From positions 1 through 64,000 of the forward strand of contig JABMNT010000032.1 in assembly GCA_013203595.1 (NCBI GenBank): a stretch of 64,000 nucleotides of DNA, in the 5' to 3' direction. Origin of the DNA: Rhodospirillales bacterium (GTDB lineage: Bacteria > Pseudomonadota > Alphaproteobacteria > Rhodospirillales > Casp-alpha2). Shown here piece after piece: positions 43,712 through 50,139 of the stretch. Both the position numbers and the translations under genes were made by a program. Every line of letters begins with the position of its first letter. The stretch's first letter is position 1. The notes under the pieces were generated by a model. It had not been told where the DNA came from, ran no database searches, and was given only the letters and a program-made list of their open reading frames with translations.

Positions 43712-44074
43712 AAACTTTTGATGGGCGCTCCCTAAGGTTGCCACTCACGCAATCTTGATGGTCCTTTCTCAACGCATTTAACGATCACCTTGCACCTGTT
43801 GGCGATTTTCTGGTCTCCCCCAGGAGCCCCGCAAGGGCGGCGAGCCGGGCCCGGCTCTATGACGACAGCCCCGTCGAGGGCACGGTTTTATCGTCTGACC
43901 GGGCGCATTTTCAATTCCAGCCTCAAGACGATTGTTACCCTGCTGGCCATGCTTTTGATGTATAATGTGGTGACCGTGCGGGCTCCGAAGAGGCCGGAAA
44001 GTCTTTGTAAGGGCTTGAAACTGCACCCGGATCAAGGTAAACCCCCGGTTAGCTGGAGCTTTTGGGATAGGGTT
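43712..44074. other. Gene-free stretch with a 16-bp palindrome
   Basis: The ArsR-type frame extends back to 43790, but that extension has no family similarity, so the region is read as non-coding. It contains the perfect palindrome GAGCCGGGCCCGGCTC at 43842-43857, possibly part of a terminator for the MR/MLE gene, though no T-run follows. The right half should hold the repressor gene's promoter. Confidence 0.5.
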
Positions 44075-44389
44075 ATGGAAGAATTATCGATCGCAGACCC
44101 GAAAAAGGCGAGCAAGTTTTTAAAGTCGCTGGCCAATGATAACCGTCTGGTCATTGTCTGTGCACTTGCCAATGGGGAACGCAATGTCAGTCAACTGGAA
44201 GAACTGCTGGGCATTCGCCAACCGACCTTGTCGCAGCAACTGGCGCGCCTGCGCAGTGATGGCATCGTTTCCACGCGGCGCGAATCCAAACAGATTTTCT
44301 ACAGCCTGGCGAGCAAGGAAGCCGAACGGGTGATCAGCCTGCTCTGTCTGCCACGCAAAGCCAAAATTCCACAAACCGAGGATGCCTGA
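44075..44389 (+). CDS. ArsR-family repressor, SqrR/BigR-like persulfide sensor
   Basis: 104 aa from ATG 44075 after AGGG. Winged helix: LANDNRLVIVCALANGE, ELLGIRQPTLSQQLARLRSDGIV, RRESKQIFYSL. Two cysteines, Cys29 and Cys91, lie where SqrR and BigR keep the pair that forms a tetrasulfide link with reactive sulfur. That fits the sulfur genes nearby (yeeE, tusA, SoxW-like, glpE). It could instead respond to another oxidant. A target site may be the AT-rich repeat between yeeE and tusA. Confidence 0.75.
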   Translation: MEELSIADPKKASKFLKSLANDNRLVIVCALANGERNVSQLEELLGIRQPTLSQQLARLRSDGIVSTRRESKQIFYSLASKEAERVISLLCLPRKAKIPQTEDA

Positions 44390-44404
44390 TTTTCACGCCC
44401 TGAG

Positions 44405-45823
44405 TTAACCGGGCCGTGTAACAGAGCCGGTGTCACCTTCATCGGCGAACCACTCCAGCCGATCCCGCAAACTGACAACAGAGCCGATAATGATGATGGC
44501 CGGCCCGGTCAGGGCTGCCTTCTCGACCGCGTCAACGATGGTGCCTATGGCACCGGTGACGACCCGCTGATCAACCCGGGTTCCCTTGTCGACAACCGCC
44601 ACCAGGGTTTTCGGGTCCGCCCCATGGGCAATCAGTTCACCCATCACCTGGGCCAGAGAAATCAGACCCATATAGACGACAACGGTTTGATTTGGCTGAA
44701 TCAGGGCCTGCCAGTTGAGGTCGAGTTTGTCGTCTTTGGCGTGGCCGGTAACGAACACGCAGGCCTGGGCATGATCGCGGTGGGTCAGCGGAATGCCCGC
44801 ATAGGCCGCGCAGCCGTTGGCGGCACTGATACCAGGCACCACCTGGAACGAGATGCCTTCGGCAGACAGCATCTCTATCTCTTCGCCACCACGACCAAAA
44901 ACAAACGGATCGCCCCCCTTAAGCCGCAGAACCCGTTTGCCCTGTTTCGCCAGGTCAACCAGGGTGCGGCTGATATCTTGCTGCTGCATGGAGTGATCAC
45001 CCTGCTTTTTACCTACATAAATACGGTCCGCATCGCGGCGCACCAATTCCAGTATGCCGTCCGGCACCAGGCGATCATGCAAAACCACATCGGCCTGCTG
45101 CATCAGGCGCAGCGCGCGGAAGGTCAGCAGATCCGGATCACCGGGGCCGCTGCCGACCAGATAGACCTCGCCTGCAGGCTCAACATCCAGGCCCTGGCGC
45201 GCCGCCTCCAGCAGTTGCTCCATGCGCGCTTCGGCAGCACCCGGTTTCAGGCCCAGAATATTTTCGGCCACCGAGCCGTCGGCAACCCGCTCCCAAAAAC
45301 GACGACGGCGGGCTATATCAGGGATCAGCTCTTTCACCCGGTCGCGGTAACTGCCGGCGAACGCTGCCAATGCGCCAAGCGCTGCCGGGACCAGACTTTC
45401 CAGCTTGGCGCGTAGCATACGGGCCAGAATAGGGGCTTCCCCGCCACTTGATATGGCCACTACAATCGGCGACCGGTCAACGATTGAAGGCATGATGAAG
45501 GTTGAGATGTCGGAGCGGTCGGCGACGTTGACCAACAGGCCCTGTTCGCGCACCGCCGCGGCAACGCGGGTTTCATAATCAGGGTCTTCCTCACAGGCGA
45601 CATAGACCAGCGTGATACCAGCCAGGTCACTGGCGTCAAAGGGGCGGGCTCTGTGCTCAAACGCCAGGCAGCTCTCGAAGTCGCGGACCAATTCCGGGGC
45701 GACCACCACCACCCGCGCACCGGCACGCTGCGCCATGGCCGTTCGCCGCCAGGCCATGGCGCCGCCACCGACAACCAGCACGAAACGTTCGTTTATATCT
45801 ATAAATGCGGGTAAATGCTTCAT
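44405..45823 (-). CDS. cysG: Siroheme synthase (CysG, trifunctional)
   Basis: 472 aa fusion. Residues 1-210 are the precorrin-2 dehydrogenase/ferrochelatase part (VVGGGAMAWRRT for NAD, SSGGEAPILARMLRAKLE). Residues 220-460 are the uroporphyrinogen-III methyltransferase with LVGSGPGDPDLLTFRAL, GDPFVFGRGGEE and GISAANGCAAYAGIPLTHR. It makes siroheme for sulfite and nitrite reductases in the cytoplasm. Normal length. Convergent with the ArsR gene. Confidence 0.95.
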   Translation of the reverse strand: MKHLPAFIDINERFVLVVGGGAMAWRRTAMAQRAGARVVVVAPELVRDFESCLAFEHRARPFDASDLAGITLVYVACEEDPDYETRVAAAVREQGLLVNVADRSDISTFIMPSIVDRSPIVVAISSGGEAPILARMLRAKLESLVPAALGALAAFAGSYRDRVKELIPDIARRRRFWERVADGSVAENILGLKPGAAEARMEQLLEAARQGLDVEPAGEVYLVGSGPGDPDLLTFRALRLMQQADVVLHDRLVPDGILELVRRDADRIYVGKKQGDHSMQQQDISRTLVDLAKQGKRVLRLKGGDPFVFGRGGEEIEMLSAEGISFQVVPGISAANGCAAYAGIPLTHRDHAQACVFVTGHAKDDKLDLNWQALIQPNQTVVVYMGLISLAQVMGELIAHGADPKTLVAVVDKGTRVDQRVVTGAIGTIVDAVEKAALTGPAIIIIGSVVSLRDRLEWFADEGDTGSVTRPG

Positions 45824-45985
45824 CGGTACAAGGCTTCTTCTGAAAAGCGAAAGACGGCTGTCTGCAGTGACATAAAGCGGAATACCTTTAGGTCAAGACC
45901 GCTTTTCCAAATCATAAGCAGACAGACTACCGATCCTGTGATATTGACGCCAGTTCCCTGTCCCAACAAGACCAGGCAAAGCCCC

Positions 45986-46987
45986 ATGCAAGAGCACCCC
46001 TTCGCCCCTTATATCCGCATTCTGGCACGTGGTAAATCCAACACCAGGCCCCTGACCCTGGATGAAGCCGATGCGGCGATGACCATGATCCTCACTGATC
46101 AGGCCCTGCCGGAGCAGATTGGCGCCTTCCTGATGGTGCTCAGGTACAAGGAGGAAACACCGGAAGAAATTGCCGGTTTTGTGCGCGCTGCCCGGAGGCT
46201 GGTCAAGCGCCCGGCCGGGGCCCCTAAAATCGATCTGGACTGGTCCTGCTATGCCGGAAAACGCCGGCAATTGCCGTGGTTCGCACTGGCCGCCCTCGCC
46301 CTGTCACAAACCGGCGTTAAGATTTTCATGCATGGCGTCGAAGGCCATACGGCGGGACGGATCTATGCCGAACAGACCCTGCGGGCGCTGGGCTTACCGA
46401 TCGCAGAAAGCCTGGAGAACGCCGCTGATATTCTGTCAAAAGCCAATCTGTGCTACCTGCCGCTGGCTGCCGTCAGCCCGAAACTGGCAGAACTGATCGA
46501 TCTGAAAGCCGTCCTCGGATTACGCTCGCCCGTTCACACCATCGCCAGACTGGTCAATCCGTTTGCCGCCGATCATGTCCTGCAGGGTATTTTTCATCCC
46601 GGTTTTAACGCCGTCCACCAGCAGGCGGCGGCCCTGATCGAACAACCGCATCTGGCGGTATTTCGGGGCGAAGGGGGCGAGATCGAGCGGCGCCCGCAAA
46701 AACCCGTGGACGTGCTGAGCGTCCATAATGGCATCCTGGATACAGAAATCTGGCCGGCCCTGATGGAAGAGCCACGCCAGGCCGTCGATGCCGACATGAA
46801 CATGAGCCGGCTGGCGTCAGTCTGGCGCGGCGATGCCACGGATGAATACGCCACGGCGGCGATCACCGGCACCCTGGCCATTGCCCTGAAATTACTTGGC
46901 AAAGCCACGACGCCCGCTGATGCCCAGAACAAAGCGGCCGCACTCTGGCAGAGCCGTGACCGGGCGGCGCTCCGGGAGAATATATAG
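45986..46987 (+). CDS. Anthranilate phosphoribosyltransferase-like protein (TrpD2/YbiB type)
   Basis: 333 aa from ATG 45986. Nucleoside-phosphorylase/TrpD fold: N-terminal helical part with LDEADAAMTMILTDQALPEQIGAFLMVLRYK and KIFMHGVEGHTAGR in place of the TrpD GTGGD loop. The YbiB/TrpD2 group binds nucleic acid rather than making tryptophan; true TrpD activity is unlikely as the PRPP motif is missing. Such genes often lie beside cysG in alphaproteobacteria; here they are divergent. Confidence 0.8.
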   Translation: MQEHPFAPYIRILARGKSNTRPLTLDEADAAMTMILTDQALPEQIGAFLMVLRYKEETPEEIAGFVRAARRLVKRPAGAPKIDLDWSCYAGKRRQLPWFALAALALSQTGVKIFMHGVEGHTAGRIYAEQTLRALGLPIAESLENAADILSKANLCYLPLAAVSPKLAELIDLKAVLGLRSPVHTIARLVNPFAADHVLQGIFHPGFNAVHQQAAALIEQPHLAVFRGEGGEIERRPQKPVDVLSVHNGILDTEIWPALMEEPRQAVDADMNMSRLASVWRGDATDEYATAAITGTLAIALKLLGKATTPADAQNKAAALWQSRDRAALRENI

Positions 46988-47152
46988 ATATCGTCCGAAG
47001 CGGAAATGCTCGCCGCCACCCCTGCGACAGCCACTTGCAAAGCCCGCTTTTGAGCGCCCAAAACCCCATACGCCCGGCAACAAGCGTATTGTCAAACGCG
47101 GTCTGGCACGCAATAGTTTGATATCAATCGGACCAATACAGAAGGAGCCCCC

Positions 47153-47440
47153 ATGTCGAATGAAGGATATCACGAGCCGATCGCTGAACTGTCAGACGAA
47201 ACACGTGACATGCACCGCGCGATCACATCGCTGATGGAAGAACTGGAAGCGGTCGATTGGTACAACCAGCGGGTTGATGCCTGTAAAGATGATGAACTGA
47301 AAGCGATCCTCGCCCATAACAGGGACGAGGAAAAAGAACACGCCGCCATGGTGCTTGAGTGGATTCGCCGGAAGGATAAGACCTTTGACCATGAACTGCG
47401 TGACTTTCTGTTTACTGACAAGCCGATCACGCACAAGTAG
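47153..47440 (+). CDS. Encapsulated-ferritin-family protein (EncFtn) without shell gene
   Basis: 95 aa, GGAG upstream of ATG 47153. It closely follows the R. rubrum EncFtn pattern: MEELEAVDWYNQRVDA, ILAHNRDEEKEHAAMVLEW and LFTDKPIT. The iron-site residues are kept (Glu30, Trp36, Glu60, His63 by alignment with Glu32, Trp38, Glu62, His65). The protein stops right after the ferritin-like helices, with no C-terminal tail or encapsulin-targeting peptide, and no encapsulin gene is next to it. It probably forms the ring-shaped ferroxidase but acts free or with a distant shell. Confidence 0.85.
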   Translation: MSNEGYHEPIAELSDETRDMHRAITSLMEELEAVDWYNQRVDACKDDELKAILAHNRDEEKEHAAMVLEWIRRKDKTFDHELRDFLFTDKPITHK

Positions 47441-47761
47441 TTCAGCTAGGCTCTGGTAAAACGCGCAGTCGGCGCTGAAAACCCCGGTTCCCGGACAGGT
47501 TCTGTTTAAACACCTGATCTCATCTGTTGATGAGCTAATCGGACGTCCTGCGTTGCAGGGCAGACAAGCCAGTTCACTTCCCCATTACCCCAGGCCTTGG
47601 TATCTTATCCGGTCATTTAAAAGTCCGCCATCAAACCGCCAATTGGGTTCGAGACGGTGGCGTATATCGGGGTGTCGGAGCGGGATAACGCTGATATGAT
47701 TTGGAATTTTTCGAAAAATCGGTGAAAATGCTGCCAACACACCAGATGTTAGGGGCCGACC
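47441..47761. other. Gene-free stretch of about 320 bp
   Basis: It lies between the EncFtn-like gene and the thioredoxin-like gene, both plus strand. It contains a short stem CCTGC-GTT-GCAGG near 47550 without T-run. No small ORF with a ribosome site and no encapsulin remnant was found in any frame. Confidence 0.5.
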
Positions 47762-48391
47762 ATGAAACATTTCTTTCTGATCTTCCTGCTTACCGCTGTG
47801 TTTACAATGGCACCAGCGGCCCGACCGGCAATTGCGGAGAGCGCAAAGCTGCCCGCGGCGGAACTTTCCGACGACGGCGTCTATACCCAGCCGTGGTTCC
47901 TGGACTCGTTTCTTGATTTGCGCGACGACATTACGGAATCGGCCGCGGCCGGCAAACAACTGGTGATTTTGTGGGAACAACGGGGCTGTCCCTATTGCAA
48001 GGAAACCCACATGGTCAACCTGCGCATCCCTGAAATCGTTGATTACATCAAAGCCCATTTTAATGTGGTCCAACTCAATCTGTGGGGTGACCGGGAAGTG
48101 ACGGACGTTGATGGTGAAGTGACGACCGAAAAAAAACTGGCCCGCAAATACCGCGTCCAGTTCACCCCGACCCTACAGTTTTTTCCGCCCACCCTCGCCG
48201 CTGACAACACGATGCCCGGCCACGACGTGGAAGTCTGGCGCCTGCTCGGCTACTGGAAACCCTTCCATTTTATGAATTCCTTCGTGTATGTCCATTCCGG
48301 CGGATATCAGACAGAGCCCAATTTTCAGCGCTGGTTGCAGGTCCGGGCCGACGAATTACGGGCTCAGGGCAAGGAAGTCGAGCTTTGGTGA
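47762..48391 (+). CDS. Periplasmic thioredoxin-like protein (SoxW type)
   Basis: 209 aa. Signal peptide of about 25 residues (ending RPAIA before ESAK). Thioredoxin fold with the CxxC active site in WEQRGCPYCKETH (about residues 72-84) and cis-Pro region VQFTPTLQFFPP. SoxW-like proteins reduce Sox pathway thiols or disulfides in the periplasm. It converges on the YeeE-type importer, 6 nt apart, supporting a sulfur role. Confidence 0.85.
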   Translation: MKHFFLIFLLTAVFTMAPAARPAIAESAKLPAAELSDDGVYTQPWFLDSFLDLRDDITESAAAGKQLVILWEQRGCPYCKETHMVNLRIPEIVDYIKAHFNVVQLNLWGDREVTDVDGEVTTEKKLARKYRVQFTPTLQFFPPTLAADNTMPGHDVEVWRLLGYWKPFHFMNSFVYVHSGGYQTEPNFQRWLQVRADELRAQGKEVELW

Positions 48392-48397
48392 AATCTG

Positions 48398-49498
48398 TCA
48401 GCTACGGCTGAACAGGTCTGCGCAGACGGCCTTGAAACTGCCCTCTTCCAGATACTTCATGCCGAACACCCCGCCGCCGATGATCGACGCCAAGGCGATC
48501 AGGGAACCGAAGGCCAGGGTCGACATTCCGCTAACGCCCTGACCGATGGTGCAGCCCAGCGCCAACACACCGCCCACCCCCATCAAGGCACCACCGCTCA
48601 AATGACGCCCCATATCGGCGGCATCAACAAAGGATTCAACCCTGAATTCGCCAGCCAGTTTGGCTGACAGGAAGGAGCCAAAAATAATTCCCCCCACTGC
48701 GGCGATGCCGAAATTGATCTTGGCACCGGTAAAAGTCATGAGATACTGCAAACCCTCGGCGATGGGAGCCACGAAACTGAACGAGGCGACGGGAGTCGGC
48801 TCGAAATCGTCATAGCCGATAAAACCGGTGACAAACCAGGCGCAGACGATCAAGCCACCAATAATCAGTCCCGCAGCAACGTCGGCTCTGGATTTCCGGA
48901 AGGCCGCACTTTTGAAACAGAAAACCAGCAAACCACCGCCAATAAGGACCACTGAAATCAAGCGGGCGACATCAGCATCGAGGCCCAGCATCATCAAAAA
49001 TTCCGGAATTCCCTGGCTTTCCATCTCAAACGATGCCAGATCAATAACCGTCATGGCTTCCAGCTGCACCCGACCGACGCCGATTAATCCGCGCAATGTC
49101 ATATAGGCAAAAATACCAAGAACCATGGCCACAACCAGCGACTTGAGGTTTCCGGCCCCTAAACGAACCAGTGTCTTGTTGCCGCAGCCGCCACCCAGCG
49201 TCATCCCGAACCCGAACATCAGACCGCCGATAATGGCACCAGCCCAGCCCAGATTGGTCGACAGATAAATAGATTCCTGGAGATCAACCAGGTCTGCCAT
49301 GACCAGCGCCTGGGTACCGACAATGGCGGTTGCTGTCGCCAGCATCCAGGCCCGAAACCGGTTCCAGTCGCCAATAAAAAAGACATCGGAAATAGCCCCC
49401 ATGGTGCAGAACTGGGTGCGCTGCGCCGTCGCGCCCAGCAATCCGCCCAGGCCAAAGGCCAGCAGGGGCACCAGAACTGCGCTGTCGATTTGATCCAT
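48398..49498 (-). CDS. YeeE/YedE family thiosulfate/sulfur importer
   Basis: 366 aa from ATG 49498 with GAGGAA upstream; about ten helices. The conserved cysteine motifs of the family are present: QRTQFCTMGAISD, GGGCGNKTLVR and GCTIGQGVSGM. YeeE (TsuA) passes thiosulfate through the membrane by these cysteines. TusA, divergent next to it, is the usual partner that takes the sulfur. Full length. Confidence 0.9.
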   Translation of the reverse strand: MDQIDSAVLVPLLAFGLGGLLGATAQRTQFCTMGAISDVFFIGDWNRFRAWMLATATAIVGTQALVMADLVDLQESIYLSTNLGWAGAIIGGLMFGFGMTLGGGCGNKTLVRLGAGNLKSLVVAMVLGIFAYMTLRGLIGVGRVQLEAMTVIDLASFEMESQGIPEFLMMLGLDADVARLISVVLIGGGLLVFCFKSAAFRKSRADVAAGLIIGGLIVCAWFVTGFIGYDDFEPTPVASFSFVAPIAEGLQYLMTFTGAKINFGIAAVGGIIFGSFLSAKLAGEFRVESFVDAADMGRHLSGGALMGVGGVLALGCTIGQGVSGMSTLAFGSLIALASIIGGGVFGMKYLEEGSFKAVCADLFSRS

Positions 49499-49630
49499 TC
49501 GTGCCCATTCCTCAATAAACTGGCTCCTGGTGAGCCCGGCTGCGCATTCTATTGATTTTCTGCGACCCCGCAATCGCTTGCTTGGTAAAATTCCCGGGAT
49601 TGCATATTTTATCTTTATTTAGTATACAAT

Positions 49631-49649
49631 ATTATATAATACGTATAAT
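49631..49649. promoter_or_regulatory. AT-rich inverted repeat and back-to-back promoters of yeeE and tusA
   Basis: ATTATA (49631-49636) and TATAAT (49644-49649) are inverted around 7 bp. Each arm reads as a consensus -10 box on its own strand, so one site could serve both divergent genes. The AT-rich repeat also fits a binding site of a SqrR/BigR-like repressor such as the one encoded at 44075. The link is a hypothesis. Confidence 0.5.
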
Positions 49650-49685
49650 GAATGTATTTTATTTTAAATTACAAGAGTTTTAAAA

Positions 49686-49922
49686 ATGACCGTTATGATT
49701 TCACAATCCATCGATGCCCGCGGCCTCAATTGTCCAATTCCCGTAATGAAGGCAAAAAAGGGCATCAAGGGCCTGCAAACCGGCCAGATCCTGGAAATTC
49801 TGTCGTCAGACCCGGGCTCGGCCCGTGATTTCGACGCGCTTTGCCGTTCAACCGGCGACAAACTGCTGTCATCGGACAACCAGGACGACGGCAGCTACCG
49901 GTTTGTCATTGAGAAGACCTGA
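49686..49922 (+). CDS. tusA: TusA-family sulfurtransferase
   Basis: 78 aa. The persulfide Cys lies in GLNCPIPVMKAKKGI (CPxP motif, about residue 16). It accepts sulfur from a donor such as YeeE cargo or a rhodanese and hands it on in the cytoplasm. It is divergent from yeeE with a shared promoter region. ATG 49686 is used; an ATG three codons later is possible. Confidence 0.9.
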   Translation: MTVMISQSIDARGLNCPIPVMKAKKGIKGLQTGQILEILSSDPGSARDFDALCRSTGDKLLSSDNQDDGSYRFVIEKT

Positions 49923-50139
49923 GCAAAGAGTAGCGAACAGGCCCCTCCAAACCTCGGCAATAGATCTTTCATTATTTATCGGTAAATGTCGAAACGCGCT
50001 GTTTGACATATATGGACATCAAACCGACATCATCCAGAAACCTTTACCGGTTAGTATGTGATTTCATGTCTGATCTATCTGTCACCCCTACCGGTGCAGG
50101 TTCAATTTGCCAAGAATACTGTCCATGATCGGAGAATTC

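Follow-up and report, generated by a model that had tools for sequence, protein, structure and literature searches.

The free, shell-less state of the short ferritin-like protein (FLP) encoded at positions 47153-47440 of the window (the whole stretch of 64,000 nucleotides of Rhodospirillales bacterium DNA which was analysed) is well supported by genomics, and the best explanation overall is that this is probably an unencapsulated ferroxidase of the EncFtn fold, detoxifying ferrous iron beside rubrerythrin, with bacterioferritin acting as the iron store. The short FLP is a member of an already published class that is widespread in bacteria; what is new here are two genome surveys, one comparing the presence of a targeting tail with that of encapsulin and the other comparing the presence of short FLPs with that of DUF3501.

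Membership of the EncFtn family was confirmed for the 95 amino acid protein by both curated profiles, each exceeding its cut-off (TIGR04535 of NCBIfam, 138.9 bits against a cut-off of 125; PF22277 of Pfam, 148.9 bits against a cut-off of 27), and a profile search found one EncFtn-family gene in the window genome. By alignment, residue i of the window protein is residue i+2 of Rhodospirillum rubrum EncFtn, and because the residues align in this way the R. rubrum ferroxidase residues, as named in PMC5012862, are kept, as the preliminary description had proposed: E30 (E32 in R. rubrum), E60 (E62), H63 (H65) and Y37 (Y39) are all present, as are the entry-site residues E29 and E32 (E31 and E34) and the putative exit-site residues H55, E59 and E62 (H57, E61 and E64). 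The features of the gene are as follows.

47141 to 47146, forward strand: AAGGAG ribosome-binding motif 5' of the ATG, read from the sequence itself.
47153 to 47440, forward strand: short ferritin-like protein (s-FLP / Non-EncFtn), an ATG open reading frame of 95 amino acids with no targeting tail.
47237 to 47266, forward strand: metal-binding helix segment 1, E29-E30-x-E32...W36-Y37 (ferroxidase and entry-site), aligned to R. rubrum E31/E32/E34/Y39 and invariant in 77 of 77 relatives.
47315 to 47341, forward strand: H55-N-R-D-E59-E60-K-E62-H63, which holds the E..H ferroxidase motif together with the residues of the putative exit site, the aligned R. rubrum residues being H57/E61/E62/E64/H65; H55, E59, E60, E62 and H63 are invariant in 77 of 77 relatives.
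47411 to 47440, forward strand: C-terminus LFTDKPITHK and stop, where tailed forms have the targeting tail; H94 is found in 77 of 77 close relatives.

An AlphaFold model of the monomer (mean pLDDT 86.3; helices at residues 15-43, 47-74 and 76-86) supports the two-helix EncFtn subunit fold, with 3K6C as its best Foldseek match followed by 5DA5 (R. rubrum EncFtn). Mean mismatch at codon positions 1, 2 and 3 against 64 relatives of the same length was 13, 7 and 53%, which shows strong purifying selection on the gene; purine-rich AGGAG words were the sole strong signal 5' of the relatives' genes. The protein ends 7 residues past LFT, while tailed forms run for around 30 residues further to LGIGSLR or LTIGRMK, and its length is exactly 95 amino acids in 65 of 77 close relatives. 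It is not a fragment, since the position of the stop and the C-terminal histidine are conserved among relatives. The absence of a targeting peptide, also part of the preliminary description, held up: no LxIGSL-like motif occurs in the protein, and inspection by eye of the three forward frames in the roughly 60 bases 3' of the stop found no targeting-like motif there either. The profile match does extend 15 positions beyond two TAG stops, but without a targeting motif, and with the stop position kept in relatives a decayed tail behind the stop was rejected.

The tail-less form is not a novelty and has been published, as the "Non-EncFtn" group set beside EncFtn by He 2016 (PMC5012862) and as the short class named "s-FLP" by Eren 2024 (PMC11202242), and the crystal structure of one member, 3K6C, was released in 2009. 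That member, NE0167 of Nitrosomonas europaea, is also tail-less and 95 amino acids long, is 79% identical to the window protein from end to end and shares with it the C-terminus LFTxKPIxHx; apart from a leucine in place of W36 it shows no notable difference. R. rubrum EncFtn (Rru_A0973, a tailed FLP-TP) has the same fold and all of the ferroxidase, entry and exit residues, with 65% identity over the core, but it carries a targeting-peptide tail and has a partner encapsulin, both of which the window protein lacks. Bacterioferritin shares with the short FLP a ferritin-superfamily di-iron site and a part in iron handling, but differs in fold organisation and cage, and is separately encoded in the window genome. 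We found no biochemical study of a natural short FLP, and the best experimental guide to what such a protein may do alone is R. rubrum EncFtn 1-96, artificially deprived of its tail, which forms a decamer, has slow ferroxidase activity without a shell and precipitates with excess iron (PMC5012862).

The window genome (4,582,399 bases in 288 contigs, completeness 100%) gave no match to the encapsulin profile PF04454 at E<=1e-3, a search which recovered the encapsulins of three known genomes used as controls, and so the preliminary description, which had found no shell gene within several kb, can be extended to the whole genome. The profile for Family 2 encapsulins, PF19307, was also without a match, though it was silent in the control genomes too. 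Here and below, absence of encapsulin means absence in profile searches of metagenome-assembled genomes (MAGs).

We surveyed an even sample of 385 genomes from across the class to which the window genome belongs, calling an FLP where TIGR04535 matched at E<=1e-15, which gave 63 FLP genomes. Encapsulin was found in 13 of the 385, all with a tailed FLP beside the shell gene, and these are exactly the 13 genomes whose FLP match reaches the last profile position (their targeting motifs being LGIGSLR, LRIGSLK and LTIGRMK); the remaining 50 FLP genomes, including the window genome, have a short FLP and no PF04454 encapsulin. Fisher's test on this split gave a P value of about 1e-13, uncorrected for kinship. 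Both states occur within a single family (f139), and in the same order as the window genome the sole relative with encapsulin again pairs its shell gene with an adjacent tailed FLP. One alphaproteobacterial genome (G205) has two encapsulin genes (L092 and L105), with an FLP beside just one of them.

A second set of 80 genomes, carrying the proteins most closely related to that of the window and drawn from the Alpha-, Beta-, Gamma- and Zetaproteobacteria, was without encapsulin in 78 cases, so that the suggested check on whether tail-less relatives also lack a shell gave a clear yes in both sets (50 of 50 short-FLP genomes in the class survey). The one intact shell belongs to a Thiohalocapsa MAG with two FLPs, a tailed one (ending LTLGSLKPERR) beside the encapsulin (L090:1444-3160) and a short one elsewhere (L060), which is a natural contrast of the two forms within one genome. 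The other case is a Chromatiaceae MAG (L091/L178, around 2075-2554) where the C-terminal part of an encapsulin is present and the N-terminal part absent, with no FLP within the surrounding 9 kb; this fragment is either a pseudogene or a misassembly.

A tree built from 105 cores shows the tail state changing 3 or more times on branches with good support (five on the best tree) and places the window protein in a supported group of 40 proteins that are all short; encapsulin tracks the tail state in 3 of 3 independent pairs. As these three contrasts, all in the expected direction, are the only independent ones, they are too few for the tree-aware test to reach significance, and with a short alignment and a poorly resolved tree gain and loss of the tail are indistinguishable.

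As to what such a free protein would do, its subunits would fold as the EncFtn two-helix unit and form a ring decamer as in 3K6C, judging from the 79% identity, and the di-iron site at the dimer interface would oxidise Fe2+ to Fe3+, to judge from the intact residues and the activity of R. rubrum 1-96, this taking place free in the cytosol, outside any encapsulin shell. We regard these three steps, taken together, as very probable. The short FLP itself would then probably not store iron in bulk, because a ring, being open, does not enclose a cavity, and because a bacterioferritin is separately encoded in the genome (TIGR00754, 228.8 bits; contig C5, L176:1041-1962), near which, on the opposite strand, lies an open reading frame resembling bacterioferritin-associated ferredoxin (Bfd); transfer of Fe3+ from the short FLP to this bacterioferritin is a guess.

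The preliminary description had supposed that a free form might hand iron to some other partner without naming one, and the genomic evidence points to the aerobic-type rubrerythrin system, a peroxide-defence module consisting of rubrerythrin (RBR), the Fe-S oxidoreductase RFO and DUF3501 (Cardenas 2016, PMC5114695). In four loci (L008, L055, L063 and L074) the short FLP lies inside an operon between an Fe-S oxidoreductase and DUF3501, and rubrerythrin is found upstream in the three whose sequence covers that stretch. DUF3501, used as the marker of this system, was present in 48 of 50 short-FLP genomes in the class survey compared to 128 of 322 without any FLP, and when one genome per family was used (handles G141-G277, one per family code, taken in listing order) in 17 of 18 compared to 47 of 116 (P = 1.3e-5), although this co-occurrence could, at least in part, reflect an aerobic lifestyle or genome size. 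The operon arrangement was seen in only 4 of the 80 close loci, three of them from similar marine or seep alphaproteobacterial MAGs, and the published system has three components with no mention of encapsulin or EncFtn (PMC5114695). The window genome has a complete rubrerythrin-RFO-DUF3501 cluster on one strand of contig C28 (L175:1492-3443, L177:323-1360), preceded by an open reading frame which reads as a Fur/Irr-like regulator, but its short FLP stands alone on contig C281, far from this cluster. Operons in four loci and co-occurrence together make a link that is suggestive. If the work of the short FLP is tied to this system, it would most likely remove Fe2+ while rubrerythrin removes peroxide, and Fenton chemistry would therefore be limited; we give this tie somewhat less than an even chance.

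The same operons with electron-transfer partners would also suit a sensor of redox state or of iron, or else a di-iron peroxidase working with rubrerythrin partners, in place of an iron detoxifier, and a solitary gene with an invariant C-terminal histidine fits such a role as well. We consider this unlikely, as R. rubrum EncFtn is a ferroxidase with no peroxidase activity (PMC5012862) and the short FLP has no DNA-binding or signalling domain.

Around the short FLP in the window (43790-50061) lie sulfur-related genes, namely those for an ArsR/BigR-like regulator, CysG, a thioredoxin-like protein, a YeeE/TsuA-like transporter and TusA. The known CysG enzyme has ferrochelatase activity, and from this neighbourhood the short FLP might be taken for an iron donor to an adjacent pathway such as siroheme synthesis (CysG, 44405-45823) or sulfur metabolism (TusA, YeeE), but across 80 related loci the short FLP is never accompanied by any of the genes that flank it in the window, and the surrounding genes are not conserved, so that the short FLP is a solitary gene in most genomes; such a donor role is highly improbable, and a functional link to CysG, the TrpD-like protein, the thioredoxin-like protein, YeeE or TusA was rejected. 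Searches upstream of the genes for a common regulator site (Irr ICE, Fur, RirA, OxyR and IscR) gave best matches no better than those in shuffled sequence. FNR-like sites with up to 2 mismatches were found in 14 of 77 upstream regions, where shuffled sequences gave 5.7 on average and 13 at most, a slight enrichment which is too weak to claim.

Turning from a free ferroxidase to an encapsulated one, a 2024 review raised the possibility that LFTDKPIAHE, the C-terminal sequence, serves as a cryptic targeting peptide and takes the protein into a shell; it is given as an uncharacterised putative targeting peptide, with no steric bar noted, in Table 2 of PMC11202242, and the high conservation of this C-terminus, including the histidine at position 94 in all 77 relatives, would agree with such a function. 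Our survey speaks against it because a shell is almost always absent where the motif is present: an intact PF04454 encapsulin is missing from 79 of the 80 genomes of its closest carriers and from the window genome, and in the sole genome where the shell is intact a second FLP, with a tail, lies beside it. The Family 2 profile PF19307, silent in the window genome and in the controls alike, says nothing either way. There is thus very little chance that the motif is a targeting peptide. Short FLPs with another ending were seen in another genus of the same family (L082:1492-1794 and L083-L086), where the C-terminus is rich in histidine and aspartate (GHHGDDH) and a MoaD/ThiS-like open reading frame lies near 4 of the 5 loci, making up a second short form with a neighbourhood of its own.

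That an encapsulin was simply lost in an assembly gap is barely credible and was rejected, since, for all its 288 contigs, the window genome is rated complete and the other short-FLP genomes, including ten assembled as a single contig (G008, G019, G020, G168, G260, G336, G342, G440, G450 and G517), also lack one.

Reviews still count short FLPs among the possible cargoes of encapsulin and discuss a putative targeting peptide for them, and the NCBIfam name of TIGR04535, "encapsulin-associated ferritin-like protein", is misleading because 14 of the 27 class genomes that score above its cut-off are without encapsulin. Against that tentative published assignment, what this analysis adds is a clean segregation of tail and shell, together with a lead to the rubrerythrin system. 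More speculatively, and with the chances rather against it, the shell-free EncFtn may be a fourth, unlisted partner of aerobic-type rubrerythrin, acting as a scavenger of ferrous iron, with the encapsulated ferritins forming a side branch in which tail and shell were acquired, or retained, together. If the rubrerythrin link is true, it would provide the first testable role for a shell-free EncFtn, and DUF3501 would gain a new partner.
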